From Ulota crispa (Eukaryota > Streptophyta > Bryopsida > Orthotrichales > Orthotrichaceae): 64,000 bases of DNA. The notes under the pieces are model-generated. The model saw only the letters and a program-made list of their open reading frames with translations, did no database searches and was not told where the DNA came from. Below, one piece after another: positions 8,437 through 62,270 of the stretch (position 1 is its first letter; each line of letters starts with the position of its first letter). Where the stretch lies: the NCBI GenBank assembly GCA_963920765.1, contig OY987246.1, positions 19,154,868 to 19,218,867 of the forward strand. The letters run 5' to 3'. Both the position numbers and the translations under genes were made by a program.

Positions 8437-8440
8437 TTAA

Positions 8441-8511
8441 CCCTTTAGGGCCAAGGCAACCAAAATTGGTCAATTTTAGCACTGGATCCAAGGCGCTCTG
8501 GCCCTAAAGGG
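8441..8511. mobile_element. Minimal TTAA-flanked element (71 bp)
   Basis: TTAA at 8437-8440 and 8512-8515 brackets inverted ends CCCTTTAGGGCC and GGCCCTAAAGGG. The unit is little more than two termini back to back. It belongs to the TTAA/CCCCTAAA family seen throughout the window. Confidence 0.75.
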
Positions 8512-8965
8512 TTAATTTCTTGACAGCAACATATGTTTCTCCATTCAAATGCTCATCATAGCTTTTTTCCGGCTTCATTTGAAGTGAACTTAGGGTTGTT
8601 AAAAAACCAATTTAGAGGTGCATGATTTCATCAAAAATCATATCTAAAATTATTGTAGTCTTCCCAATTTCCTTTGCCAAAGTTGTTGCTCCTAATTTAG
8701 GTTCAACTCTTATCTCTAATGGATAAAAAAAAATCTGATCAGCAACTGGGCCAAGTTTCAATAGTTTTCCAAACTCCCAAAAAGATCTATTGATTTTTGA
8801 AATTTATTATCCTCCAAAACTCTAAAACTAACTTACACCCTTACACATACTCTTGCACACAAAAGAAAGTCCAAAACCTAATCTCCCACCCTAACAATCA
8901 GATCTAGATTTGAAGTTTCATCTACAAAACTTTAACCCTACTCTAATTTATTGCAAAATGCACCA

Positions 8966-9222: not shown

Positions 9223-9749
9223 ATGTAGATTGACATCAAATGCACTACTTTGTTGTAAAATGCATTGCTATACAGTGAATTGCACTAACTATTTGCATTC
9301 CACATCTAACTTAAAATACCTTCCACTATGTTTGTATCTTAGTGCTTCTTCTAACTCTACTAATTTGTTTTGTGTTTTTGTTAATTGATATTATCGATTT
9401 CTAATTTCTTTCTAATGAAAATCCCTCTTTATAATATTTTGTTTTGGATCTCTCTACTTTGTACTTAGCCCTCTCATTTCATTTTGTCAAAAAATATTTT
9501 TATTAATCTATGTTAATGCTTCAAGCTCCTAAATAATGTTTTAATTATCCAATGTTAAGTAGCCAGTCAATATGATAGCTATCAATGGCCTATATTTTAA
9601 TCGGAAAATTGGTTTTAAACATGAAACTAATTTGAATTCTTTGAATGGTCAAAATATTGCAAAAGCAACCTCTACTGATCTTCATTAAACAAACTCTAAA
9701 AAACCAGTGCAAGAATCTAGAAGAGGGACTTAAGTACTCTTTCTTTAAC

Positions 9750-10480
9750 CCCTAAAGGATCACTTGTCCCTACATGGATCAAATGGGATTTTGGGCATGT
9801 ACTTATGGCTAAACTACTTTGTGTAATTTTTTGAAGTTTTTATGAAAGAATGGGAATTCAAAGATATGTGTGGGCATTTAATTTTAACCTCATTCCGACA
9901 TTTATTGAAGAAGTTAAAAATGAATTTATGAGAATTTTAGTTTGGCAAGCAGCCCAAAAAATTCTTTAAAAATTGCATTTGCTTAAAATAAAAATTTGAG
10001 GTTAGTTCTTTAGACTTATGTATATGTGTGAAGCATTGAATCATTCAATTCTAATTGATGAGATAAAAGTTATGAGAAGTTTTACTTTGCGGGTAGGTGT
10101 GGAAAATCTCAAAACTATGTCTACATGCAAACTAAAATTTCTCATAACTTTTATCTCATCAATTAGAATTGAATGATTCAATGCTTCTCACATACACATA
10201 AGTCTAAAGAACTAACCTCAAATTTTTATTTTTAAAAAATGCAATTTTTAAAGAAGTTTTTGGGCTGCCCGCTGAACAAAAATTCTCATAAATTCATTTT
10301 TAACCTCTTCAATAAATGTCAGAATGAGGTAAAAATTAGATGCCCACATGGATCTTTGAATTCCCCATCTTCCATAAAAGCTTCAAAAAATTACACAAAG
10401 TAGTTTAGCCATAAGTACATACCCAAAATCCCATTTGTCCACGCATTTGTCCCTTGTAGGGACAAGTGGTCCTTTACGGG
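9750..10480. mobile_element. Large TTAA-flanked foldback element (731 bp)
   Basis: TTAA at 9746-9749 and 10481-10484 brackets the element. The ends CCCCTAAAGGATCACTTGTCC and GGACAAGTGGTCCTTTACGGG are inverted, and the arms stay complementary for about 330 bases each, meeting near 10100. A related half-copy lies at about 12150-12530. There is no open frame of note. The right TTAA is shared with the next element. Confidence 0.85.
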
Positions 10481-10484
10481 TTAA

Positions 10485-17402: not shown

Positions 17403-17801
17403 AGGTAGAAGCACCCATTCCCGATCATTTAAGCTCTTGCAGGATAGCACATTAGAGCAACAATGCAGCAAAAAAAAATTTGGTGGTTTCATACAAAATA
17501 TTGTGACACAAATTTTTTCAGAAATTTTCACACAAAATTGAATTATATAAAAAATTTGAAGTGCATAAAGTGTTCAAAACCCATACCCAATCAGTAAACT
17601 CTTTGGATCCCAATCATAACCAAAACACTTCTTGCTCACTACTTTTGACTCTCTTTTGGGACACATGTCATGATCTCGTTCATCTTAATCTTGAAAAGGG
17701 AAAAAATACACATCCCAAGGCTTAGAAATAAGAGTTAGAAATAGCACATACCTTGCAGTGGTTGGGTTTGAATTCGTGGTTGGGAATGGGTGGTTCTACC
17801 T
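17403..17801. mobile_element. TA-flanked AGGTAG-family MITE
   Basis: TA at 17401-17402 and 17802-17803 flanks inverted ends AGGTAGAAGCACCCATTCCC and GGGAATGGGTGGTTCTACCT. It is the same family as 24195-24508, 36495-37108 and 54136-54799. A TA duplication is typical of Tc1/mariner-type elements. Confidence 0.8.
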
Positions 17802-21209: not shown

Positions 21210-21435
21210 CCCTTAAACATCCATAGGGCATAGTATATACGCTGACGTATAATTGCCATTTGTTACCAATAAGAAATTTTAATTTGGGATCTCAAGTAGC
21301 TCACTAGAACTGCATTGATCTATTTTTCAACTTCTTTGTTGGTCTCAAATGTAATAAAGGTGTGGATCCATACCAAATACAAGGAAAATATCCCATATTG
21401 TACTGGTTGGAGCAGCATGCTCAAACGTTTAGGGG
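21210..21435. mobile_element. TTAA-family element, chain member 1
   Basis: TTAA at 21206-21209 and 21436-21439; termini CCCTTAAACATCC and AAACGTTTAGGGG. It shares its right TTAA with the next element. Confidence 0.7.
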
Positions 21436-21439
21436 TTAA

Positions 21440-22086
21440 CCCCTCAACGCCCTTGAACTTTTCTAAATCTCTCAAAATATGCTTCAGGATGAACAAAATG
21501 CCAACATTTTAATAAAATTTATCGTTTTTTTTTAAATGTAACCGTATAAATTCAAGCTAGACATGTTAGGGATTACACTAAAAAAGAAAAAAACAACAAC
21601 ATTACTTATAGATTAAAAGATTAAAAGATTTGATCATGAGAGTTTTTAAAACTGTGAAAGTGATTTGAAATCTTTCAATCCTCTTTTCACATCTCAAATT
21701 TGAAATTGAGGATACCAAAAAAAGATGCGCATGTAAAGTACAACATGCAACACCCTAATCAATTTACGGCCTCTCAAAATATATTCTACAACTTCTTAAA
21801 TTAAATTTCTAATGTGATTTTTTCTCCAAGTTCTAGTGTACTTGAGGCTCATTTCCAAGAGCTTTCAACACTGGAAAGTGAAATTTACAATGAACATCTT
21901 TGCACAAAATCTTGAATAGACAAATCATAATCATTCATTTTCAAAATTAGATTTTTGACACTTAAACAAGATTTCAATAAGAACAACTTAAAATAATAAG
22001 TATTAAGATGAATTTTGAAGAAAAATCAAGCCATCTCAAAATACAATGCAGAGGAGCGCTATTTGCGCCCCTTAGGCCTTGAGGGG
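21440..22086. mobile_element. TTAA-family element, chain member 2
   Basis: TTAA at 21436-21439 and 22087-22090; termini CCCCTCAACGCCC and GGCCTTGAGGGG. The interior is homologous to chain member 3, for example a shared 'GACATGTTAGGGATTACA'-like block. Confidence 0.75.
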
Positions 22087-22090
22087 TTAA

Positions 22091-22733
22091 CCCCAAAATG
22101 ACCCTAGGATTTCTTGAGCTTCTAGGAATTTATTCTAATTTGAACAAAAAGCCAACATGTTGATAAGTTGTATCAATTCTATTTGAATTGTAATCATATA
22201 AAATCAAACTAGGCATGTTAGAGATCACATTAGAAAAGAAAACATAATAATATCTCTTATGGATTGAAAGATTATAATGTTTAATCATGAGGGTGTTAAG
22301 ACTATGAAAGGGACTTAAAATCTTCCAATCCTCATTTCAAAGGTTAAATCTAAAAATCTGATCACCAAAAGAATATGAGGTTTAAGGTTGTTAGATGTCT
22401 AACTTAAATAAATTTATGGCTTTAAAATCTACGCCTATGTTTTTTTTTAATGATTTTTTAATGTAGATTTCTCTCCAAGCTCTAGTGTAATTGAGGCTCA
22501 TTTTTTAAAAATTTCAACTCTAGAAAACTCAAGATTGCAATGGACACCCTTGTACAAAATCTTAAATAGAAAAATCATCAACATTCATTTTCAAAATCAG
22601 ATTTATGATATTGAGAATAGACTTCAAAACAAACTTACACAAATTTATTTTTACTAAAATAGTGATTGGATAAGCTTTATTCATCTTCAAAATTTTGTAA
22701 ACACCTAAATTGGGTGCCTTGAGCATTTAGGGG
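22091..22733. mobile_element. TTAA-family element, chain member 3
   Basis: TTAA at 22087-22090 and 22734-22737; termini CCCCAAAATGACCC and GGGTGCCTTGAGCATTTAGGGG. It is a diverged direct copy of chain member 2. Confidence 0.75.
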
Positions 22734-22737
22734 TTAA

Positions 22738-25190: not shown

Positions 25191-26059
25191 CAAAAAGAAT
25201 TTATTTTGTGGAATAAGATTTCTAGGGGATATATTCTGTTCTTGAACTTGATAAACTTGTTTATATGGATGTTAGAATTTTGTTTATATGTCCACCTAAT
25301 GGGTTTCCTTTCCTTGGATAGTCTTAAATCTTAAAAAAAAAAGAAACCCCAAAAAAAATTAAACTTTGTATGCCCATGTCAAAATCTTTGAATATGTTTA
25401 TTGTGCCAAACTATGTAAAAGCTTACATTGTGATATACATTCATTCATATCCAAAAACGGTTATATCAATAGGGATTTCAAACTTTGACATACTTGATTT
25501 CTAATGTTGTTTTTATGATTTTAGAATTTTGAGTACATTGTCCTTGATCAACCTAGGTATCTACCATGTTTCCAAAATGAACTTTTGTGTTCATATCATT
25601 CTAAACAAGCAACTACAAGAGCATTGAATTATACACAATTTTTTTTGAACAACCTAGAACAACCACACAAAAATTATTTGCATCTTTTTTAAGGCATTTC
25701 CAAGGTTGGGATTGGAATTTTTGAGGCTCTAGTTTCAAGTAAATGTGGGGTTAACAATTCTCTAGTTTGAATGCACAAAGTAGCTATATAACAAGCTATA
25801 TAATTAATCATCTTGGAAGGATTATATGGGCAAAAAATACCACATTTAACTAAATATGGGGTTCTCTATGTTCTTGAACTTTGTAGATCTTTCAAAATTT
25901 AGCATATTTTTTCCAACACTGTGCATGCATAGTTTTTGATGGATACATCTCTTGATGATCAACATGTATCTCTCAATGCTCTGTAACTACAATTTTTTTT
26001 GCAAATGAAAATGAGTTTAGAGCTATTACTTATGGTCTTATGGACTTGTACTTAGTTAA

Positions 26060-26944
26060 CCCCTAAACTACCAAGGCCATTTTTTGCCAAAACCCACTCA
26101 AAACTGCCCCTATTTCTGCGTTCATCAAAAATTCCAACAAAATGCTTTCCTTGTAAATCTAACCATAGGAACTTGTAAAGCACTTGTAGAAGAAGAAGTG
26201 GTAAAATTTTTGTGACATTTGACCGCATAGATTGAAAGTTATGAGCATTTGAAGGGAAAAGTTTTTTTTTCCATGGTGCCCAAAAATTTCAGATGGCTTT
26301 GACAACCATTTGCTGATTACTTTTGCTCTACAAACAGTGAATTGGTAAATTTATTTTCTAGGTAATCAAGTTAGACCTTTGTATACCAATTTTCAAGGCA
26401 ATCAAAGACACGGAACACATTCTAAAAAACATTGCAATGCCACTATATGACAAGTTTTGCAAATACACTATGACATTTTTGAGTGAAGTTTCCCACCACA
26501 TGTTTTTAGATATGGAAAATCCAAAGAGCTCGTTTGAAGATAAACATGTACCTCAAATGCCAAAAAAAAGAAGTTAAAAAACTCAAAATTTCTAAAATTT
26601 AGAAGCTCCCAAAGCCCAAGTTGACCTCCTAATTAGAAATGAAAGGGGGCAATTATGAAGTAATGGGGACCACCAGCACAACATGTGGCAACCCCTCCTT
26701 GCTCCCTCCCCTCCAAAGTCAATATTTTTTCCCTTGCCCAAGCTGCCCCTCGAATTGCTTTTGGCCAAAAAAAGCCCATAACTTGTGAACTGTGTGACTT
26801 AATCACATGATTTTTTGCATCCACAAACCTTATACATTCCTACACACCTGTAAAAAGTTTCAAAAAATCATGTCAAAAATTGAGGTCACACAAGCCTACC
26901 CAAAATCCCAAAAGTCCCCCAAGGGGACTTTGGTCCTTTAGGGG
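26060..26944. mobile_element. TTAA-family element (885 bp)
   Basis: TTAA at 26056-26059 and 26945-26948; inverted ends CCCCTAAACTACCAAGGCC and GGGACTTTGGTCCTTTAGGGG. There is no transposase-like open frame, so it is non-autonomous. Confidence 0.75.
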
Positions 26945-27982
26945 TTAAGTGTGACATAAATAATTTTTTTCTCAAGAAGCAATGTTAATCCATATAAGCA
27001 TTTATGTGGCCATATAAAGATCTCTAGTGGTGTTTAGTTTGCCAAATCATAGAACTGAATATATGATGCAGTATAAACACATAATTCACAAAGAGCTTGT
27101 TTTTTTTATAAAGAGTTTCAAATATTGCCATGACAAAAAATTTAGAGTCACTTATATGGCTTCGCACTTTTTGAGAGTATCGATTGTAGTCAACTTAGAC
27201 ATTTCCCACATTTCATAGTTAAAACTCCTTGTTTATATCACTTCAAAAAAATAATCTCTAAAAAGCAAATACAATACCCAAAGGACAAGTGGGTTGGGTT
27301 GCAATGCAAAGGACAACAAGGATATGTTCCTTGACAAAAGGAATTAAAAGAAAAAAAACGAAAAATGAGAAAAAAAGTAAAATAACCAAAAATATATAAA
27401 CAAACTTAGTGTAAACAACTCAGTACCAAGCTGCCAAGTGACAAGATGGCTGGAACTACCTTGTTCCAAGAAGTCTCAAATTCCAAGAATAACTTAGTGA
27501 ATAGATAATCAACTTGGATGGATGGATGGAAAGCATCAACAAGATAGATTTTTTCTCAAAAAAATCACGTGAATCATATAAACTTATATGACCATTTAAC
27601 CGCTGCCAAAGATGGTTTGTACAACCCGAACCGTATAAGTGCTTGTGCAATGTGGTATAAGCCTTCACATGAAAAGGATTTTGTACACTACAAGGGATGG
27701 TTTTAATCCTTACACAAAAAACAAAAATGTCGAAGTCTGAAACCCCTACAGTGCACGCACTAGAGTGTTCTGTCTTCTGTAGCTTGAAAACGCAACCTTG
27801 TGGAAAATTTGCATCATCTGAAGCCAGATTTAGTGGCAGGAAATTATAGAAGAACAGCACGAGCGTGGTTGCCACACCTCCGGATGATTATACTCATGAC
27901 GCAGGTTCGACCAGAAGCCTGTCAAACGTACATGCCACATGGTAGCGGAGACAACTGTTGTACAAGATGTGCAAACGCTTAA

Positions 27983-41857: not shown

Positions 41858-41861
41858 TTAA

Positions 41862-42086
41862 CCCCTGAGCGCCTAGCACAAGTTCACTCAAATGTTAGCC
41901 CTTGGGAACTCATTCCAATCAAACAGATCCAAAAAAATTGATTGTACCAATTAGTAGTGCACATAGGCCCAGAGATCCAAGGAAAAGGATATGTCCTTTC
42001 ATTGTACCATTGAAAAGATTATAATGGTCAAACTATGAAATTTTTCAAAATTGAGAGGCCATATGTTGGCCCTTGGCGCTCAGGGG
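41862..42086. mobile_element. TTAA-family element (225 bp)
   Basis: TTAA at 41858-41861; TTCA in place of TTAA at 42087-42090. The ends CCCCTGAGCGCC and GGCGCTCAGGGG are exact inverses. Confidence 0.8.
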
Positions 42087-42369
42087 TTCAGTGAATTGTT
42101 TGAAGATCACTCTTTCTAGGTTTTTGGTTGTTGTTGCATCAACAAGCTTGGAATCTGATGTTGTTGTGACAATTCTTTTAGTTTTTAAACATTTGATTAT
42201 GGAGATTATGTAAAGCACCCAAATGTGACACTAGCTATTAGTGACATCTTAAGATAAACCTAAATAGACATCTATAAATAAACCGAAACAAACAAAGCAC
42301 TTGTAATTAAAATAAACCTAAATAAATAAACTCAAACAAATAAGATAGTTATAAATAAACTTGAACAAG

Positions 42370-42482: not shown

Positions 42483-42755
42483 GTTAGCGTAAGAGAACAA
42501 AAATTGTGCAAGTGGTGGTTTATGATTGGAAGTGACATGGTCTTTCTATTGTCATGACATGGTTTTTTTGTTGTCTCTTCTTCAAGGATCTAGTCTACAC
42601 AATATGTTAATCTATGGAGTTACCTCCAATAATTTGAAATTTATTTAGAAGATCTCAAAAAATTCCAAGAACAAATTTGTTTGCATGTGTACCCATTTCC
42701 TAACAAACCTATGCTATTATATTCTCAAAAGAACCTCCAAATTATCACATCTTAA

Positions 42756-42979
42756 CCCCTGAACGTCCCAAACACCCTTTGTGGCTATACGTATGGCCGC
42801 ATGTACAGATTTATTTGAGTTATTCTGAGGACTTTCCAAAAAAAATTATGCATCTACCATCATACAACCCTTCAATATATATGCTTGTAACACTTGATTT
42901 CTAGCTAATTCAAACTTCTGTATATTGGTTGTGATTGTATTTGGTACTGTATCTCCAGAGCACAAGGGACGTTTAAGGG
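42756..42979. mobile_element. TTAA-family element (224 bp), nested
   Basis: TTAA at 42752-42755 and the variant TCAA at 42980-42983. Ends CCCCTGAACGTCCC and GGGACGTTTAAGGG are inverted. Confidence 0.75.
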
Positions 42980-43619
42980 TCAAGTAAGTGTCACTTTTGG
43001 GTGCTTCTACCTTAATGTATGGCAGCAGTGAAGGAAAAATATGGTCCCTAGATCTGTGATGTTAGACCTATGATGTTATTCTGATATCATGTTGGTGATA
43101 TCTAGCTGTCCCAGAACGAGTTTAGGGTGTTTCGTGAGATGGCTATACCCGTGGGAATAAGTGAAACGGTAAATACTAGGGAGGTAAATGTGGGAAAAAA
43201 TGTAGAAGTTTGGATATAGATTTTTGTTTTTGAAGTACAGTGTAAGTTGCGACCTTGGAGAAAATACAAGAGGTCCAATGATGACTACTTTTGCCTCTTA
43301 GGGCCACTTTAATATGGCCAAAAATTCAGAGGTTATTAATTTCCACCAAATTTGGCCATTTTAATCCTTAACACAATTATCTTCCAAATGCATACATGGG
43401 AGCACTTCATCATCCAAAGCAATAATGATTCAAAATAAGTTAAAAATTTCCCTAAGAACTTTAAAACTTATGAATTTTTGCAATGCCAAAATGCATACCT
43501 TGTAATGCATAAAAATTAAAAGTAATTTAAAAAACTAAAAAGTTTACATGAGGAGAAAGATGGATAAATGTTTAACAAATATTATGATGTTAACCTTTGA
43601 ATTCAGCTTTTAAAGGCTT

Positions 43620-49400: not shown

Positions 49401-50863
49401 TGAGCTTCCATTCCAGAACGTGTTGGACTACAGAGAATTTTCGATAAAGTGGCCAAGCAGTCGCATAAATGAGGAGCTTTTGACCTATCTTCGTTCCATT
49501 CCTGGTACAATCCCCTGCCTTTGTATTCGAAGCACGCCAAATGAAAGCTCAATTCTTGAGTAGGATTTGTTTAGGCTAAGAGCATCTCTAGAAGTACGGA
49601 TTCCGCAAAGAAAAGCCTTTACGTATGCACATGGTTTGCGGAGCTTAGTTTCGCTGCATTCTGCCCAGGCTTACCTCGGTTTCCCCTGCAGATGCCATAG
49701 TGGTCCATGAAAGGCAGCAGTCAAACAACAATAGGGGGCTTCAAACATAAAATCTGGCCTTCGAACTTCTCACGTCACAGGATCTCCGCTCACCAGTGAA
49801 CTGTTTTCGTTCCCTCGCACGTGCAAAGTCTGAGACACCCGTGAGTTTGCGGAAGTTTTTGCGAAAGAAGTTTCGGGGTTTAAGGAATTAGGTGCATGTG
49901 TCCCACGAAGCCACGAAAGTGAGTTTTTGAAGTTCACTCCTCACGTGAATCACGTTAGGAGTGAAGTCTAGAGGTGAGTCACGTCACAATTCACTAGTGA
50001 ATTCACAAAAGTGAATCGTGACGTGAGTCACCTGAAAAAGTTTAAGTTTGAAGCCCCTAATGAAAAGTGCCATGCGTCATTTTCCCTCACATTATGCCAA
50101 TCAAAGTCTGTCACCATTGTAGTACTAAAATCACAAGGACCTCTATAATATCACATTTTGACCTCTGTGATATTACATGTCCACTCTTTCTGATACTATT
50201 ATATAGATACAATTTGAAGACTTATTGAATTTTTTACTTGCATTCTATTCAACATATGAAAATCCTAATAAAATTCTAATGGTAAATGCTTACCATAGCA
50301 AGCGCCAACCCCTAGTGATTTCCTGAAACAATAGGCATGACAAAGTAGTACCTGACCAGCTCACAAATATGGGAAGCCAATCCCTGGGTTTTGCCAAGAA
50401 GGAGGTTGCAGTGCTGAGGCCATCTTTTTTGCCCTGCATTCTCTGCAATTGGCATTCCGGAAGCTCAATGCCTTGTTAACCTTATCACTAGAGATGCTCT
50501 ACTCTAAGTCACCATGATAGTGGTGGTGGGATAATTCTATGTTTCCATGTTTGCAAAGTTCAAGGAATACTATTCAGCTATGAATTAGAAAACTGAAGAA
50601 TCGTGGTGTGCTATGCTGTTGAATGTTTTGCAGACCGTGACGTTGAGAAGTTGCTGGAGCGAGGTCGAGATGTGCGGTGTCTTTTCACGTATGCTCCCGA
50701 CAGCGAAGGCTGCACCGCCTTGACAGGCATTCTCTGGGAGCTGCAACGGAAAGTCCGAGCGTTCCACCAACATCACCACACTTTCTGGCTACACAACACC
50801 TCCCTGGTGAACCAAGACCTTGTTCAGTTTTCAGATTGGACTCCCCCCTTTCCTGTGCCTTAA
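46411..50863 (+). CDS. Exostosin-family GT47 glycosyltransferase
   Basis: Probably a type II Golgi enzyme adding a sugar to a cell-wall polymer or glycoprotein; the substrate is unknown. Clear exons: 47904-48053, 48167-48231, 48360-48429, 48540-48755, 49092-49235, 49369-49504 and 50634-50863, plus the 3' part of 46900-47141 from IYVYDVEEIEGLRELV onward. All introns are GT-AG and in phase, ending TPPFPVP before TAA. Family blocks are QADFFFVPAYVKCV, SGGRDHVFVFPSGAGAH, NRSIFLTPEGDRTDKKGF, YLGRAQGKKGR, LRNAKFCLAPRGESSWTLRF, ECVPVILSDEIELPF, WPSSRI and ETFWLHN-like HTFWLHN. From memory the order fits the plant clade that includes Arabidopsis At5g16890. The N-terminus is inferred: ATG 46411, hydrophobic VLGATVLVILTYS, donor at 46532, acceptor at 46899; this joins in phase, for about 457 residues. 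The first exon could be wrong. Confidence 0.85.
47210..47659. mobile_element. Stowaway-like MITE, copy 2, in intron 2 of the GT47 gene
   Basis: TA flanks (47208-47209 and 47660-47661) bracket ends CTCCCTCTGTCCCTCTAAAA and TTTTTTAGAGGGACAGAAGGAG. It contains a 25-bp internal tandem duplication (GCGTTTGAAATCAGCAAAAGGGA twice, about 47555-47600) that the copy at 19031 lacks. Confidence 0.92.
48757..48795. mobile_element. TTAA-family terminus at a GT47 splice donor
   Basis: Exon 48540-48755 ends GAG, and the intron begins GTTAACCCC. The T of the GT and the next bases form the TTAA target, directly followed by CCCCTTAAGTGCCC, a family terminus. The opposite end was not found in the intron. Confidence 0.5.
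49579..50501. mobile_element. MITE with AGAGCATCTCTAG termini in intron 8 of the GT47 gene
   Basis: The ends AGAGCATCTCTAG (49579-49591) and CTAGAGATGCTCT (50488-50500) are exact inverses. Another element, 49734-50057, is nested inside. Confidence 0.75.
49734..50057. mobile_element. MITE with GGGGGCTTCAAACAT termini, copy 2, nested
   Basis: TA flanks (49732-49733 and 50058-50059); ends GGGGGCTTCAAACAT and AAGTTTGAAGCCCC. Inverted relative to 17846-18179. Confidence 0.8.
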
Positions 50864-50871
50864 GAGGTTTA

Positions 50872-51267
50872 AGGAAGACAGACCCATATCCGACCGTTTA
50901 AGGGTTTGGGGTACCTCAAGGTCTTGGAAAATTGAGGAAAAACATTTGTAGGGTTAGCCTTTCAACAAGCTACGTCATTTTTGGGGAAAAAAGTATTGTA
51001 GAATACTTTATATTTAAAGGCAAAGTTGCAGCTCATAGGGTCCCTATTAGCAACTCTAGACTAATCTTGAAATTGTTTGGATGTGTTCTTAGAATGGCAC
51101 TTGTTGGTCCCAATTCCAACCTTTGCAAACTAGCTTAGCAACTGACTTGTGGCAAGATTTGCTTGTGCAAGTAGCGTTGACTGCTCCACTTTGGGTTCAA
51201 GAGTGGACATTGAACACCAGGGTGCAGAATTGAATTGAGTGCCGCTCCGGAGTGGGTATATCTACCT
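50872..51267. mobile_element. AGGTAG-family element just after the GT47 stop codon
   Basis: TA flanks (50870-50871 and 51268-51269); ends AGGAAGACAGACCC and GGGTATATCTACCT. It starts 8 bases after the TAA of the GT47 gene, so it probably supplies most of that gene's 3' UTR. It holds an intact TTAA at the site where the sister copy at 59237 carries an insertion. Confidence 0.8.
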
Positions 51268-51269
51268 TA

Positions 51270-52678
51270 ACGGTATGTGTTCAACAGGTTTTTAACTCCA
51301 CGAATGCAGCCGTTATTTATACCAATTTCATGGTTTTTGTCTTTTCGTAAAGAAACACAATTGTAGTCTTTGCAAGGTTCTTCACGAGCAGTGGAAGAAG
51401 CCCAATGAGAAGCCGGTTTGCATTGAGAATGAGCATCAACCTGCATTAGGCATGCCGCTTACATCAAATATTAAGATCTTAGAAACAACAATTGTCTATT
51501 ATAATAGAAACTCGTTCATAAATAAGGTCAGGACGTGATCCAAAAGCCTATCTTCAACATTTTGGAGTCTTCTCTTTAATTTCTTCCCAGTTGTATGAAC
51601 TTACGAATGCCAATTTCTTTTTCATGTTTTACTTGTTTTTTGAAATTTTAGCTCGCTAAACATCAACTTATTTTGCTGTTTGGATTTTGATAAAGAGACC
51701 TAACCTTCCAGCCTTGCTGAACAGTGTTCGTCGTTCCCCTCTTTCCAGTTTCTATTCTGATACTCAAGTTTACAAGGCTTTAATAGAATCCAGGCCAACT
51801 TCCATACTGCATTGGAATTTGAGAACCAAGGAAACGACAAAGGAGTTACAAAGCTATGCATGGAAGTGTGCTGGAAAATAGTAGACAAAGATTGGAAATG
51901 GTGCTCCAACAAGTCTCTTGCAAGAAGCATGGGAATCAGAGTTTTGCGTACCCCAGATTTGTGCAAATGAGAAATTTCACATAAAACTGCAATCTTTGCA
52001 TTGCTCAATTTATTATGCACAAAAATATACGAGCTTTCTTTGAAAGCTTCAACGAAAAACTTCAGCAACAATCCCACCAAGATTTTCACAGCAAAACATT
52101 TCCCAACACTTAGGAAATGCCTGCAATTGGTGAAACTGAAATCTTTTATGACTTTTGGTAGAGATGTCATAACTATGTACAAGCTTAAACAATCTAAATC
52201 TAAATCTATTATTATGGGTTAACAAACCACTAACCTTCCAAGGGTGATGAAAGGAATCCCTTCAAAATCTAAAAAAACACAACCAATTATTTCTCAGGAT
52301 TCTTCTAAGACTGGGCCGACGCCACAAGGAACAAGATGACCGCGTGGCTTGCTCTCCAAGGTAGTTCTAAAAGTTGATACCACTGAAACCAATCCTTGCT
52401 TTTTCTAGTACTGAAGGTTGATTTCACTGAAACCAATCCTTGCTTATTCTTTTTTTCAAACCCAAACACAACTCTCACCATGGTATTTTTTTCTAGCAAA
52501 AGGAAGCCAAACTGGCAAAAAAAAAAAACTGACAGATTTGAGCCACTCTCGACTGACCCCTCCACTTATTCTCCATTTATTCTTGAATGGACTATCAACA
52601 GCTGTAATATGGCGAACGAAAAAAATGGCCTGATACATAAAAGAAGCCACCAAAAAAAGGGGGGAAAAAATGCTTTGG
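51270..52678. other. Spacer between the convergent GT47 and alcohol oxidase genes
   Basis: 3' flanks of two convergent genes. Short duplicated words occur at 52380-52440 (ACTGAAACCAATCCTTGCTT, twice). No gene recognised. Confidence 0.5.
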
Positions 52679-55600: not shown

Positions 55601-58600
55601 AATCAACAATACTAGACGACCAATTGACATGCCACACAACAAGTTGGCAGTGTAACAAACAACAAGTTGAAAACCAATTAACAAATAACAATGCAACAAT
55701 GCTGAATTGACTTGTAATTAAGGATATCATGTTTTCAAGCTAGTGTAATGTGCCATTGACATGTTTTGTTTTTGTCCCATTATAGTACAATACACTCTTG
55801 TCATATTAAGCTTCCATCCTTTTACTACAATAACTTTTTTTTTTTTTTCCCTACCATGAAGAAGTGGATTTTAAATAAGACTATAAATAAGCACATACTC
55901 TATATCTCAATGTTTTTTTTAATGTTTTTGTCAAGGTAGAACAACTGGCACCTTAGAAAGTGCACAAGTAAGGAAAAATTGGCTAATATTGGAAGTAATA
56001 AATGAAGTGCGCACATTCATCCAACACATTTACTAATATACACTACTTTCATCCAAAAACCGGCAATCCATATGTTTGCTCAAGAAGACATCTGGCAATT
56101 TCATCCACTTCTTAAACCTAATTTCTTAATGTAGTGGTAGCCACAAAAATTTCAAGGTAAGATTTAGGCAAAAATTCGCCAATAAAAAAGGACGCTGCTA
56201 TATCTAACTAATATAGGGTTACCGTACCTGCTGTGCGTTGCAGTTGGATAAAACGATGGCGTTGCCTGTGTTCACGGCGTCCACCAGCCACGTCTCGGCT
56301 GTCGACTGCTTCTTCCCCGTCGGGCATCCGTAGCTGCACCACCCACAGTAATGATCCGACGGACAGTTCCTCTGCAGCGTGGCGTGCTCGTACCCCAGTT
56401 TCTGGCACCCCATCTGCAGCACCGTGTTTTGCAAGCTGTGTTTGTCCACGTTGGGCTGCACCGACAGCCGCTCCCACACTGCTTGCAACGCTCGGTCGTA
56501 CCTCTCGCTGCTGAAGAGCTCCAACCCGTGGTCTTTCACCCACTCGCTTCGCACATGCTCCGGCGTTTTGAACGACACGCACCAGTTCACGGCTGTACCT
56601 GCAGGGAAAAGATTTCACCAAAAATAATCGTCAAAATGGTAAAGGCCACCGGTACTCATTTAGTTTAAGTACCCATTGTATCAATGAATGTAAGAAGAAT
56701 ATTCTTGTAATAAACAAATTATGCGCTAGCAATCTTATCACAAAATGTGGCTAATTTTAAGTTTAAAACTATGAGTGACTAGTTAACTTACATATGCCAT
56801 CAACTTGATTCAAAGTAAAGTCTTAGTGTAAACCACTTCATGCATGTACCCCCCTCTTCCTTCTTGGTATTTTGCTAAAAGGACAAACAGATTGCTGGAA
56901 ATTGCACCATGACACTCTCTTTGAGTCAATCAAAATGAAACTCCTCTGGTGGTTAATAATAAAGTATAATAGGTCACTAGAAGTTATACCACAACACTAT
57001 CTCTTTAGAAAAGTGGCTTCATGAAAACCCTAAACTAGAGGGATTCTTTTATATATATAGATAGATAAGTTTAGGTACAGGTACCCGTTGTATCAATGGA
57101 GTAAAGCCTCAATGTAAACCATTTTATGCATGTATCCCTCTCCACTTTATGCATGTATACCTCTTCACTTTATATATGTACCCCTCTATTCATTGTTGGT
57201 CCTTTGCTAAAAAAACAAACATGTCACTAGAAGTTGCACCATGATTCTCTCTTGCACTGAAGTTGATCCATGACACTCTCTTTCAGTCAATCATCATGAC
57301 TCCTGTGGTAGTTATTAATAAAGTATAACGAGTCACTAAAAGTTACACCACAACACTCTCTCTTTAATTTTAGCGGCTTCACCAAAACCCTAACCCAAAA
57401 GGGATTCTTTTACATACATAGACAAAACCCTAGCTCAAGTCCAGTTTTTCATTGACAATTGGAGAATTTGAGAAAAAGTTGTCAGTTTCGTGAAGAGTTC
57501 TGGTACCTCCACCCACGGCTTTTCCAGCGATGAGTTCCACGCCGCCATCGTCGGTCGCCATGCACCCCATCCTTTCAAACAAATTGATCATTCCGGGTCC
57601 TTCCAGCGTGGTCATATCCTGCGCTGCGAAGTAGCTCCCCTTCTCCAAGACCACCACCTTGAACCCTTGCTTCGCAAGAGCCGCTGCTATCACCCCGCCT
57701 CCAGATCCTGAGCCCACGATCACCACATCGCATTCCAGATGGATGTCTTGGTTGTTGCTCTTCGCTGATTGTGATGACACGGTGGGCGTTTCGTTCACCA
57801 CAGGAAAACCTTTGCTCGCAAGGAGCGTTTTGAGCTTTTCACTCTCTTCCGTGGCGTCGATGTGGCTGTCACCGAGTGGCCTTGGTCGATTGTAGTCGTC
57901 CTTCGTCCTGGCTCGGACCTCCGGTGCCACTCCTGTGTACCCCATTGCTTTCCATGCTGGATTCTCACCGTCCTCATCGAGCTGATCGCAATCCACACAA
58001 AACCCCAGCGTTCAAAAACCCCAGCGTTTCTTTAGGGTTGTGAGATACGGAAAATTTCATGGATACCCCTGGAGTTTGCAATATTTACATAGATACCCCT
58101 GTTTTTACAGAAATTACACAATACCTCACCGTCCTCATCAAGCTGATCGCAATCCACACAAAACCCAGCGATCAAAACCCCAGTGTTCTTTAGGGTCTCG
58201 AGATAGGAAAATTTCATGATACCCCTAAAATTTGCAATATTTACATAGATACCCCTGCTTTTTCAGAAATTACACAAATACCTCACCGTCCTCATCGAGC
58301 TGATCGCAATCGACACAACACCCAGCGTTCATAACACTAGCGTTTCTTATGGGTTTTGAGATAGGAAAAATTTCATGGATACCGCTGAAGTTTGCAGTAT
58401 TTACATAGATACTCCTGCTTTTTCAGAAATTACACAAATACCCTTGGACCATAATTTTTAGCCATTTATATATTTGCTGCGTTTGTACTTCCTTCATGAC
58501 CAATGTTGAAGAAAGGGAATGTAATGAAACAAAAAAAAAGCAACAATGCCCATAAAGGAAGAAGGGAAGTGGCATGCACAACAAACAAACATCTGAAATT

Positions 58601-60230
58601 TTTGGTACAAGGGAACTTGTGTAACCCCTGAAAAAATAAGGGTATCTACGTAATTATTGCAAACTTCAGGGGTATCCATGAAATTTTCATCAAAACCAAA
58701 AGTTTACTAGAGTAGAAACTCGGGCCGGACACGTCTACAAAGGACAAGTTATGGGCAAGATCGAATGGGGAGCTGACCTTAGAGTAAAGAGCCCACCCTG
58801 TGATGCACTTCAAGGCCTTGAACATTTGTCGGATTTGGGAGAAAGGGCACCTCGCCCAGCCCTGCAACACCATTTCTTGCGTTCGGGGAGACAGACGTGC
58901 AAACTTCGGAAAGAATGGGTACTTGAGAGTGCTAGTGTTCACTCTACCCACCGCCCCAAGCAAAAAGGTACCCCATCCTGTACTCAAGAGCCCTATTACC
59001 GACAGCAACTGCTTCAATATCACTGGCCTCATCAAACAACCCAACGACGCAGCGACCTGCATGCGTCATACACACAAATGCACATCAATCGTTGAAAATC
59101 ATCCTCGAATTCAAAGAGCCACGTCAACAACCATGGAGTTGCTGGTGTTTTTTTAGAGTGTACGAGTCATGATTAAACCCTAATTTTGCTTTCAGCAACA
59201 TGCAAGACAGTCTATGGCCAGCCTGCCCGTGATTTAAGTCAGACACACCCGTTCCCAATGGGTCCCCAATTCTGCACCCTACTTTTGAGAATTTCACCAC
59301 ACACTGTTGAATTCATAATGGAGCAATGAACTCTACTTGCACAAGCAAATCCTATTACATGTACATGTTAGCTGCTAATTTAGTTTGCAAGGGTTGGGAT
59401 GTTTGCAAGGGTTGGGATTGGGACCGTCAAGTGCCATTATAGAAACACATTCAAGCAATATCAAGGTTAGTTTAGAGTTGCTAATAAAGACCCTATGAGC
59501 TGCAACTTTGCCCATTGATATAAAAGAATCTACAATACTTTTTTCCACAAAAATTATGCTTTCATGATAGCTTGTTGAAAGACTAACCTTACTGATAAAT
59601 TTTCCTGAATTTTCCAAAACCTTGAGGTACCCACAAACCCTTAACCCCTAAATGCCTGAGGCACCAAATTCACCAAATCCTAGTGTAAAAACCACCAGAA
59701 TTTTGATGGGTGCCTAAGGCATTTAGGGGTTAAACGGTCGGGTATAGGTCTGTCTACCTTAAGACGCACTCGCCAGAAACTAAAAGTCGGTCACAAAGAG
59801 TAGGTACATACACGCATGGTGAAGCAACAGTACGCATGGAAAATCCGCACACAATGCTTGCACACAATTCACGGCAGTAATTGAGAATTGGGGTCGGGTG
59901 AGATTAGGTGCAGCGATAGTGAGCTGGCAGTACACAAGCAGAAAGGTGAGAGAGAAAGAGAGCAGAGCAAGCGAAACGTACAACGTCGATGACGTCTTCG
60001 TCGGAAGGTTTGAGGCGGTACAACCTCGTGACATCCGCGGCCGTCACGCCGCTTGCGAGGTCGGCACTGGTCACACCGTCCGGTGGCGGAAGCGCGGGCA
60101 CGAACGCGTCGCAAATCGCCGTCAGCGCTTCGAATTGCCCGGGGGAGAATTCGTGCGCGCGCGGCGGCGTCCATTCCAGAAGCGACGAATGGCCATGAAT
60201 CACTCGCGAGGACGCCGCCGAAGAGGCCAT
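52679..60230 (-). CDS. FAO: Long-chain-alcohol oxidase (GMC flavoprotein family), seven exons
   Basis: Oxidises long-chain fatty alcohols to aldehydes with O2, releasing H2O2 (EC 1.1.3.20 by family), probably membrane-associated. Exons on the minus strand: 60230-59982, 59056-58778, 57981-57507, 56598-56228, 55296-54909, 54003-53755 and 52974-52679. All introns are GT-AG, every phase closes, 768 residues, close to the family's usual 740-770. Exon 1 has [21 protein letters not shown]; exon 2 has a hydrophobic stretch ([19 protein letters not shown]) and WARCPF. The FAD-binding motif [16 protein letters not shown] is at about 263-278. VGGGTAVNWC spans the 3-4 junction; exon 4 has [15 protein letters not shown]; exon 5 has [17 protein letters not shown]. 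The C-terminus has HQLGSCRMG (His about 700) and [14 protein letters not shown], with the expected GMC active-site His and Asn. The start is the only in-frame ATG before the conserved N-terminus. MITEs and tandem repeats fill five introns. Confidence 0.94.
52987..53092. repeat. Direct repeat in the last intron of the oxidase gene
   Basis: Two copies of a 46-base block (TTTGGGCAAGTTTTGGCCAA core) spaced 59 bases apart. Confidence 0.9.
53110..53272. repeat. Three-unit tandem repeat in the last intron of the oxidase gene
   Basis: Three diverged units of about 50 bases share GGCGTGT, TCCAATGTTGCA and TTTTAGGGTTCTTGACTT. Confidence 0.85.
54136..54799. mobile_element. AGGTAG-family MITE in intron 5 of the oxidase gene
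   Basis: TA flanks (54134-54135 and 54800-54801); ends AGGTAGCTACACCCC and GGTTGTTGCTTCCT. It shares CTCACTATTTAAG and TTTTTAGCATCTC with 36495-37108. Confidence 0.7.
55352..55726. repeat. Foldback in intron 4 of the oxidase gene
   Basis: The ends TATCCTTGATTACAAGTCAA and TTGACTTGTAATTAAGGATA are inverted, with arms of about 160 bases around a loop near 55510-55560. Confidence 0.88.
56664..57425. repeat. Large direct duplication in intron 3 of the oxidase gene
   Basis: A block beginning ACCCATTGTATCAATG is repeated from about 57082 (ACCCGTTGTATCAATG). Both carry ATGCATGTA, GACACTCTCTTT and GGGATTCTTTTA-type words in the same order. The second copy lacks about 100 bases near its start. Confidence 0.8.
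57964..58440. repeat. Three-unit tandem repeat across the intron 2/exon 3 border of the oxidase gene
   Basis: Units start CTCACCGTCCTCATC at 57964, 58125 and 58282 (spacing 161 and 157). Each contains, on the minus strand, the acceptor GCGATCAG, 18 nt of exon 3 (Leu-Asp-Glu-Asp-Gly-Glu), intron sequence, and the first 75 bases of the GGGAAAATTTCATGG MITE. In the two extra units the 18 nt are followed by GTATT, a potential donor. Confidence 0.92.
58365..58690. mobile_element. Mutator-like MITE, GGGAAAATTTCATGG family, in intron 2 of the oxidase gene
   Basis: A full-length copy with ends AGGAAAAATTTCATGGATACC and GGTATCCATGAAATTTTC. Its left end has been copied into the tandem array next to it. 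Confidence 0.82.
59237..59759. mobile_element. AGGTAG-family element in intron 1 of the oxidase gene, with a nested TTAA element
   Basis: TA flanks (59235-59236 and 59760-59761); ends AGTCAGACACACCCG and AGGTCTGTCTACCT. It is an inverted copy of 50872-51267, interrupted at 59641-59733. Confidence 0.8.
59645..59729. mobile_element. TTAA-family element (85 bp) with a visible empty site
   Basis: TTAA on both sides (59641-59644 and 59730-59733); ends CCCCTAAATGCCTGAGGCACC and GGTGCCTAAGGCATTTAGGGG. The sister host at 50872-51267 has a single TTAA at the same point (CCGACCGT-TTAA-GGGTTT). Confidence 0.93.
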
Positions 60231-61302: not shown

Positions 61303-61325
61303 GGAAAAAAAAGAGCCTGCTTTAA

Positions 61326-62237
61326 CCCCTAAAATTATTTTGTGTTTAGAGGCCCAAAACTGTTTCAAAATACCAATCCCCACAGCAAGGTCAAAATCTT
61401 CATTGAAACTTAACATTTTAACAAATCTACCTGTAGGATCCTTTGGTTGACTTACACAAGTACATTGTCCCAAAATTTCAAAATGAATATCTCCACCAAT
61501 TGCAAGATCAATGTGCCTAAACTTCAAAATGTAGGCTTTTCTAGCCCTTCTAGAAGGTGAAATTTTGCTTTTCAAACTTTTTAGAGAAAAACTTGTATGT
61601 TGTAATTCTTGTGCAATTTTTGCAATATGTTGGAAAAGGGGTTGAAAGCATATATAAAAAAATTTGACCAAAAAAAATTTGGGATTCGTTTTTACAAAAA
61701 TTGTAAAGTGAAAGGTATTGATAAATGAAAGATATAACTAATATGCTAATAAGTTTTGGAAGAATTTGGAAATTATCAATCCCAATGGTGAGAATGCTCT
61801 AACAGACAATTAATAACTTTAATTTTCATTTTCATTTGAAAATTTTCAAAATTGAGAGTAAAAGATAACTTTATATGTTTTTTCTACCCTCTTCCTACCT
61901 TCATTGCCCACAAAATAAAATTCCTTTGAAGTCTTGCCTTGTTATTTGGAATTGAGTGATTCAACTTTTTTTGAGTAGGTATCAATCTATAAAATTCTAT
62001 AAAAAATAAAAATAAAATTTTAGAGTATATTTTTTGCCCAATTTGACATTGAAATTGAAAAAACCTTATAACTTTTGCATTACTTATCGAAACAACATGA
62101 AATAAAGCTTCACACATAGATTATGATGAGTAGCATCCATCCTAAAAATTTCATGAAAAAAATTCCAAATTATAAAGTCAAGAGAACTTGCCTGAGTTCT
62201 CATAAAGCCCAAAGTGGGCTCCTTGGGCCTTTAGGGG
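61326..62237. mobile_element. TTAA-family element (912 bp)
   Basis: TTAA at 61322-61325 and 62238-62241; ends CCCCTAAAATTATTTTG and GGGCTCCTTGGGCCTTTAGGGG. The inner left end is diverged, and there is no transposase-like frame. Confidence 0.6.
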
Positions 62238-62270
62238 TTAATAAGAAGAAGGATATGGTTCACTTTGGAG

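Follow-up and report, generated by a model that had tools for sequence, protein, structure and literature searches.

A TTAA-specific family of miniature elements, very probably of piggyBac type, in the genome of the land plant Ulota crispa

As a genetic tool piggyBac is in wide use, and its natural hosts are described mainly as animals, fungi and some protists. The superfamily (transposase domain PF13843, DDE_Tnp_1_7; structures 6x67 and 9c0f) is characterised by TTAA flanks, C-rich tips and a DDD transposase domain, and an account of coral elements gives its tips as CC[C/T]T and its terminal repeats as 12-19 bp (PMC2872659). The coral CMITEs described in that account are about 100 bp long, have TTAA duplications and terminal repeats of 13-14 bp, occur in tandem arrays and have a related empty site. 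Here we describe a comparable 85-bp element in a 64,000-nucleotide stretch of Ulota crispa DNA (contig OY987246.1, "the window"). The U. crispa genome contains TTAA-specific insertions, one of them with a paralogous empty site, large copy families and many piggyBac transposase genes. It has in common with the piggyBac superfamily the TTAA flanks, the C-rich tips and, genome-wide, the DDD transposase domain; it differs in the land-plant host, in candidate transposase-bearing spans of 5.2-6.6 kb, in the tip CCCC of the miniature inverted-repeat transposable element (MITE) and in the non-coding nature of the 85-bp element. The coral CMITEs differ in end sequence and host kingdom, and longer MITE families are also present in U. 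crispa. The 85-bp insert is very probably a non-autonomous MITE of the piggyBac superfamily in a land plant, and it is in this host that the interest of the finding lies.

Sequences of piggyBac type have been mentioned from plants before. Seven superfamilies of angiosperm MITEs are listed in a 2023 review, PiggyBac among them (PMC10004981), plants are named with insects and fungi as piggyBac sources in another 2023 text (PMC10813416), and PiggyBac appears in a general sentence on plants (PMC10794571). Repeat tables use the label "PiggyBac" for 1230 copies (122 kb) in the fern Ceratopteris (PMC6890710), for one repeat in Stipa capillata (PMC8319324) and for none in Cyperus iria (PMC11751304). 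By contrast, a plant table of 2022 lists Tc1-Mariner, hAT, Sola, MuDR, PIF-Harbinger and CACTA, the word piggyBac being absent from the available part of that article (PMC9033089), and a plant transposon survey, in the excerpts available, omits the superfamily (PMC2528002). The original prediction, made from the sequence alone, stated that such elements are not established in land plants; the last two sources agree with this, but the first three name piggyBac in plants. No account of a land plant with bounded piggyBac elements that carry a transposase was found in the accessible portions of the open-licence literature.

The original prediction described a TTAA, an 85-bp element with perfect inverted ends and a second TTAA, in intron 1 of an oxidase gene, and its coordinates were exact: window positions 59641-59733 read as these three parts, 93 bp in total. 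The inverted ends of the element (59645-59729) are perfect over 13 bases and match at 20 of the first 21. It folds as a single long hairpin, has no coding content of its own and carries the tip CCCCT, its termini being CCCC...GGGG. The site fits intron 1 of a GMC oxidoreductase gene in a gene model drawn by eye. The first coding frame ends near 60.0 kb and the next lies at 57.4-58.0 kb, both open frames being on the minus strand, and a Pfam GMC_oxred_N match lies at 56222-56614 in the minus-strand gene that carries the insert.

It had further been claimed that the host repeat around the insert is an inverted copy of the repeat at 50872-51267, which has a single TTAA, and that the insertion is clean with an exact duplication of TTAA. 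Alignment confirmed both claims. Between the repeat and the reverse strand of 50700-51400, 362 of 437 aligned positions are identical (83%, gaps excluded). At the insertion point the empty copy has the sequence AAACCC-TTAA-ACGGTCGG, compared with AAACCC-TTAA-(85 bp)-TTAA-ACGGTCGG in the occupied one, an excess of precisely 85 + 4 bp. The most plausible reading of the empty paralogue is a site that was never hit; excision is not what was observed. The host repeat is itself a member of another MITE-like family, whose ends are (A)GGTAGACAGACCCAT and copies of which lie in the window at 50872-51267, 59400-59759, 17404-17800, 33102 and 36496 and in other genomic loci at L033:7429, L036:6789 and L046:4829. 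This family is not under a strict TTAA rule, because xTAA or TTAx stands beside several copies, and a TA duplication is the best reading for it.

As TTAA is palindromic, a lone site cannot tell a TTAA duplication from one of TA or TTA; many copies can. In the window, TTAACCCCTAA with up to two mismatches matched 58 times (27.2 expected; none of 100 shuffles reached 58), and the 17-bp end TTAACCCCTAAATGCCT had 337 forward and 337 reverse exact matches in the 274.8-Mb genome, with none for a reversed-pattern control. In the window and loci L001-L048, an exact CCCCTAAA was paired with its complement at a distance of 60-2000 bp if 11 or more of the 14 end bases were inverted; TTAA was not required. 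Most loci had been fetched via one TTAA-bearing end, which biases that end and leaves the opposite end unbiased. TTAA stood on both sides, with all four positions kept, in 27 of 31 distinct end-selected pairs (64 to 1495 bp), and the other four differed by one substitution on one side (TGAA, TCAA, TTAT, TAAA). The outermost T on the left and A on the right were kept at 61 of 62 positions, while the next four bases outward were near random on both sides, with a mild excess of T just left of TTAA (15/31). The target is therefore a 4-bp one, and duplication of TA or TTA in the CCCCTAAATGCC family was rejected on the basis of these flanks. The empty site and the 27 pairs agree in showing the TTAA target-site duplication of piggyBac.

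When 40 elements were linked by blastn matches of at least 60 bp, clusters of 25, 7 and 6 were obtained and two elements stood alone; the cluster of six consists of elements of 64-85 bp, including the one reported here. A longer kind measures 640 bp. With one copy as query, at least 39 further near-full-length relatives were present among the scored matches (91-93% identity), and fetched copies were 69-87% alike in the pairwise comparisons listed; the 640-bp family thus appears to consist mostly of old copies, with some younger ones.

A profile search of the genome with PF13843 gave at least 120 scored matches (116 of 528 candidates were scored), with a best E-value of 1.3e-73, on contigs C1-C11. 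Many span nearly the whole 349-position model, up to the full domain length, and ten of the 120 rows are free of stops. Four translated open frames match the domain with E-values of 8e-60 to 1.2e-25, and the translated copy L049 matches the solved transposases piggyBac (6x67, E 4.1e-20) and piggyBat (9c0f, E 5.8e-17). A protein database search gave 16 relatives (29-69% identity over 33-91% of the query). Three catalytic Asp are present in the DDE_Tnp_1_7 transposases of this genome, L049 being an exception at the third. In an alignment of 14 proteins, in the columns taken to be the catalytic ones, the second Asp was invariant, the third was Asp in 90% or more, and the first was Asp in 12 of 13 covering rows (His in P0016). 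The absence of PF13843 matches from 14 well-known genomes was dropped as a plant negative control: that set seems to be without a land plant, because NAC also scores zero there. The U. crispa genome itself has about 13 NAC genes (25 exon matches), far below the hundred or so of angiosperms; an initial impression of a grass genome, gained from the style of the genes, was rejected on this count, which suggests a lineage outside the seed plants. Directly behind the transposase frame of L060, which has a C-terminal Cys-rich tail, lies a long (CATA)n microsatellite (L060:5064-5713).

The 3' flanks of 11 transposase copies were read. An inward-facing TTAA-CCC-type end (one mismatch allowed) was present 1.1 to 2.1 kb past the domain in eight, and no such end was present in the 3' flanks of L050, L054 and L057. 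The 3' ends of L049, L051, L055 and L059 have tips of the CCCTTTA type (CCCTTTAGCGACCATGG, CCCTTTAAGGACCGTGG, CCCTTTAATGACCATGG and TCCTTTAACGACCGTGG, respectively), and five of their six pairs align above the best of 200 shuffles, the alignment beginning at base 1 or 2 or, in register, at a more internal position; outside the TTAA-type site, no pair does. L051 and L059 have 135 bp in common at this end. The flanking site is TTAA in L049, L055 and L059 and TTGA in L051. With one mismatch allowed, TTAACCCTTTANNGACCNTGG matched 483 times in the genome (reversed control, none). Among the matches listed (100 of 483), the distance to the centre of a transposase domain is at most 3.5 kb in four, each of them on the downstream side and directed inward; in 2000 draws of random positions, the mean was 0.29 and the maximum 4 (the extents of two contigs being estimated). 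One transposase lineage, to judge from these sequences, has elements ending in TTAA-CCCTTTA.

For six transposase copies a 5' end was also sought, and a candidate was obtained for five, giving spans of 5565 bp on C2, 5162 bp on C6, 5656 bp on C8, and 6607 and 6010 bp on C4 (at 3.59 and 4.13 Mb, respectively). Nine of the ten flanks chosen in this way are TTAA and one is TTGA. The C2 element reads TTAA-CCCTTTAACG, with the ten bases identical at both ends; of 4000 random stretches of 3 kb, none offered such a partner end. The ends match at 9 of 10 bases on C6 and C8 (background 2-8% and 3-7%), and the 5' ends of these two share an in-register stretch. Tips are CCCT at both ends on C2, C6 and C4 (3.59 Mb), CCCA/CCCT on C8 and CTCC/CCCC on C4 (4.13 Mb); for C4 (3.59 Mb) and C8, the 5' end could be either of two overlapping TTAA sites. 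The C2 element is firmly bounded on both sides and the four other spans less firmly.

The MITEs and the transposase copies were also compared directly. Starting at the TTAA, the window MITE at 26056-26948 and the MITE at L043:7605-8490 can be aligned for 550 and about 575-580 bp with the 3' flank of the L053/L060 transposase copy, the aligned stretch being the last 565-590 bp before the downstream end. Alignment scores were 235 and 440.5, respectively (top five of 50 shuffles, 31.5-34.5). A longer span at the second locus, L043:7605-9513, was rejected as a mixed element, since the MITE stops at 8490. In the first 40 bp, the 5' ends of three of five transposase elements resemble the ends of the 640-bp MITEs (0, 2 and 3 of 1000 tip-keeping controls were as good). 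What links the CCCCTAAATGCC family to the transposase elements is indirect: both have the TTAA target and tips of one class, and some of the comparisons also show a subterminal palindrome of the ACCAWATTTTGGT type. The links between CCCC-type ends and the transposase are tentative.

Several observations weigh against assigning the element to piggyBac. Although its 13-bp perfect repeats lie within the published range, the tip of the CCCCTAAATGCC MITE is CCCCT and not CC[C/T]T as in the coral account (PMC2872659). Among the matches listed (100 of 674 ends, all on C1), CCCCTAAATGCC ends did not bound any transposase element; a single CCCCTAAATGCCT end lies less than 8 kb from a transposase, at a distance of 4.4 kb, and it faces away. 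Stops are carried by 110 of the 120 PF13843 rows, some possibly intronic, and L049 has Asn at the third catalytic position. The L053/L060 flank stretch has at least 39 other scored copies, all of them more than 15 kb from any listed transposase, and a search for the 5' end of the L053/L060 copy was unsuccessful; this 3' flank may be a MITE adjoining the gene. For six of nine ends tested, 14 to 987 of 1000 controls were as good a match to the 640-bp MITE ends (14 for the L053 3' end; 206 to 987 for the other five, which show no such resemblance). The ends of the C4 (4.13 Mb) span match at 8 of 10 bases (background 7-16%), which does not prove the pair, and those of C4 (3.59 Mb) at 5 of 10 ungapped (background about 80%), which is uninformative. 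A TTAA-CCC-type end with one mismatch occurs in 1009 to 1133 of 2000 random 1.2-kb stretches; mismatch-free ends were present in five of eight 1.2-kb flanks (L052-L059), compared to 357 to 387 of 2000 random ones. Such an end near a transposase was withdrawn as evidence by itself, the random background being too high.

Part of this would suit a TTAA-specific family moved by another superfamily, whether Kolobok, Sola or one not yet described, with convergence on TTAA and C-rich ends: the missing transposase copy with an exact CCCCTAAATGCC end, the CCCCT tip, and CCCC-type ends near transposases that are not above doubt given the random background. Kolobok has TTAA duplications and is reported from green and red algae (PMC9587614), and no search aimed at Kolobok or Sola transposases was made beside that with PF13843. 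However, the same source gives Kolobok termini as 5'-RR...YY-3', starting with purines, as opposed to CCCC...GGGG here, and piggyBac transposases are abundant in this genome, one lineage having TTAA-CCCTTTA ends; we consider such a family unlikely. An element like the plant Tourist MITEs (PIF/Harbinger, TTA/TAA) or Stowaway MITEs (Tc1/mariner, TA), with a true duplication of 3 or 2 bp, would likewise be small, non-coding, bounded by terminal inverted repeats and situated inside a gene; the palindromic site cannot by itself separate 2-, 3- and 4-bp duplications, and the adjoining host repeat has xTAA/TTAx flanks. What separates the element from these families here is its TTAA target, and in the 31 pairs the outer T and A are kept while the next bases vary, which makes a Tourist- or Stowaway-type origin very improbable. 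Short elements with 13-bp ends can also come about by chance, or through an assembly or alignment artefact. The 674 exact copies of the 17-bp end, the near-full-length relatives of the 640-bp family and the flank statistics refute this, and we give it hardly any credence.

The assignment of the 85-bp insert to piggyBac agrees with the original prediction of a piggyBac-like or otherwise new TTAA-specific family, which is supported by the TTAA-flanked copies, the PF13843 matches and the CCCTTTA lineage of transposase copies, with its shared boundaries and one firmly bounded element. Neither of the two outcomes that it had named as contrary, copies without the TTAA duplication or a partner from another superfamily, was seen in the copies examined. 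Its proposal that further copies be collected was carried out with the 31 pairs above. The search that it proposed for a longer, transposase-encoding copy gave transposase matches and TTAA-CCCTTTA ends on transposase copies, and no transposase element with the exact CCCCTAAATGCC end among the matches listed. We infer that piggyBac transposases moved the CCCCTAAATGCC family and that the cutting and joining followed their chemistry. A piggyBac-type DDD transposase from a longer relative would bind the terminal repeats, perhaps aided by the subterminal palindrome; it would excise the element with TTAA ends, and insertion at a TTAA target cut with a 4-nt stagger would leave TTAA on both sides.

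More broadly, it is likely that piggyBac has become entrenched in one or more lineages of land plants, probably not seed plants, where it comprises several transposase lineages, each with CCC-type ends of its own, together with several large MITE families that descend from them. It is likely, too, that plant annotation has overlooked it, since the repeat classifications used for plants largely omit piggyBac. The presence of piggyBac transposases and an intragenic TTAA MITE in a plant makes ancestry in plants versus horizontal transfer a testable question, and the genome offers native plant piggyBac ends and transposases for study. Plant TTAA MITEs should be checked against piggyBac before they are filed as Tourist or Stowaway.

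Table 1. Positions in the window of the reported element, its empty paralogue and other TTAA-flanked elements.
Feature	Position	Strand	Remarks
Reported element including both TTAA copies	59641..59733	.	93 bp; 85-bp element
Left TTAA target-site copy	59641..59644	.	
Left terminal inverted repeat, CCCCTAAATGCCT	59645..59657	+	13/13 match to right end; 20/21 extended
Right terminal inverted repeat	59717..59729	-	
Right TTAA target-site copy	59730..59733	.	
Paralogous host repeat, empty site (single TTAA)	50872..51267	-	MITE-like, GGWAGAYAKACCCA ends
Mini-element, TTAA-flanked, CCCTTTAGGGCCA ends	8437..8515	.	14/16 end bases inverted; tip type as in CCCTTTA transposase lineage
TTAA-flanked element, CCC[CG]TAAAGGAYCACTTGTCCC ends	9745..10484	.	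740 bp; 14/16
TTAA-flanked element	21436..22090	.	655 bp; 12/16; right TTAA common to element 22087..22737
Probable TTAA-flanked element, one end CCCCTAAATGC	22087..22737	.	651 bp; 10/16 end bases
TTAA-flanked element	26056..26948	.	First 550 bp align from TTAA with L053/L060 piggyBac transposase 3' flank
Possible TTAA-flanked element, pairing uncertain	61322..62241	.	920 bp; 8/16 end bases

Back-to-back elements with one common TTAA (AGGGGTTAACCCCT, at most one mismatch) occur twice in the window, at 21429-21446 and 22080-22097 (20 shuffles averaged 0.1, with a maximum of 1), and nine times in 296 kb of loci that had been selected for such ends. At L064:440-620, a transposase-bearing element begins at the TTAA that closes a MITE-like stretch with a ACCAAAATTTGGT palindrome, and the two elements seem to stand edge to edge. 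L034 was rejected as a long element, its inner frames resembling a host gene of the hydroxyproline arabinosyltransferase type (Pfam match below cut-off), and the candidates L044 (8.3-kb span) and L048 are known from lists of ends and open reading frames alone. An Rfam scan of the window at the gathering cut-off gave snoZ103 alone, and an NCBIfam search gave no match. Pairs of C-rich inverted repeats at 41858-42090 (233 bp) and 42752-42983 (232 bp) have one TTAA and one altered flank each (TGAA and TTGA, respectively). In the oxidase gene, one 11-residue peptide recurs in three adjoining open frames (57960-58320, minus strand), which suggests tandem duplication of a piece of the gene.

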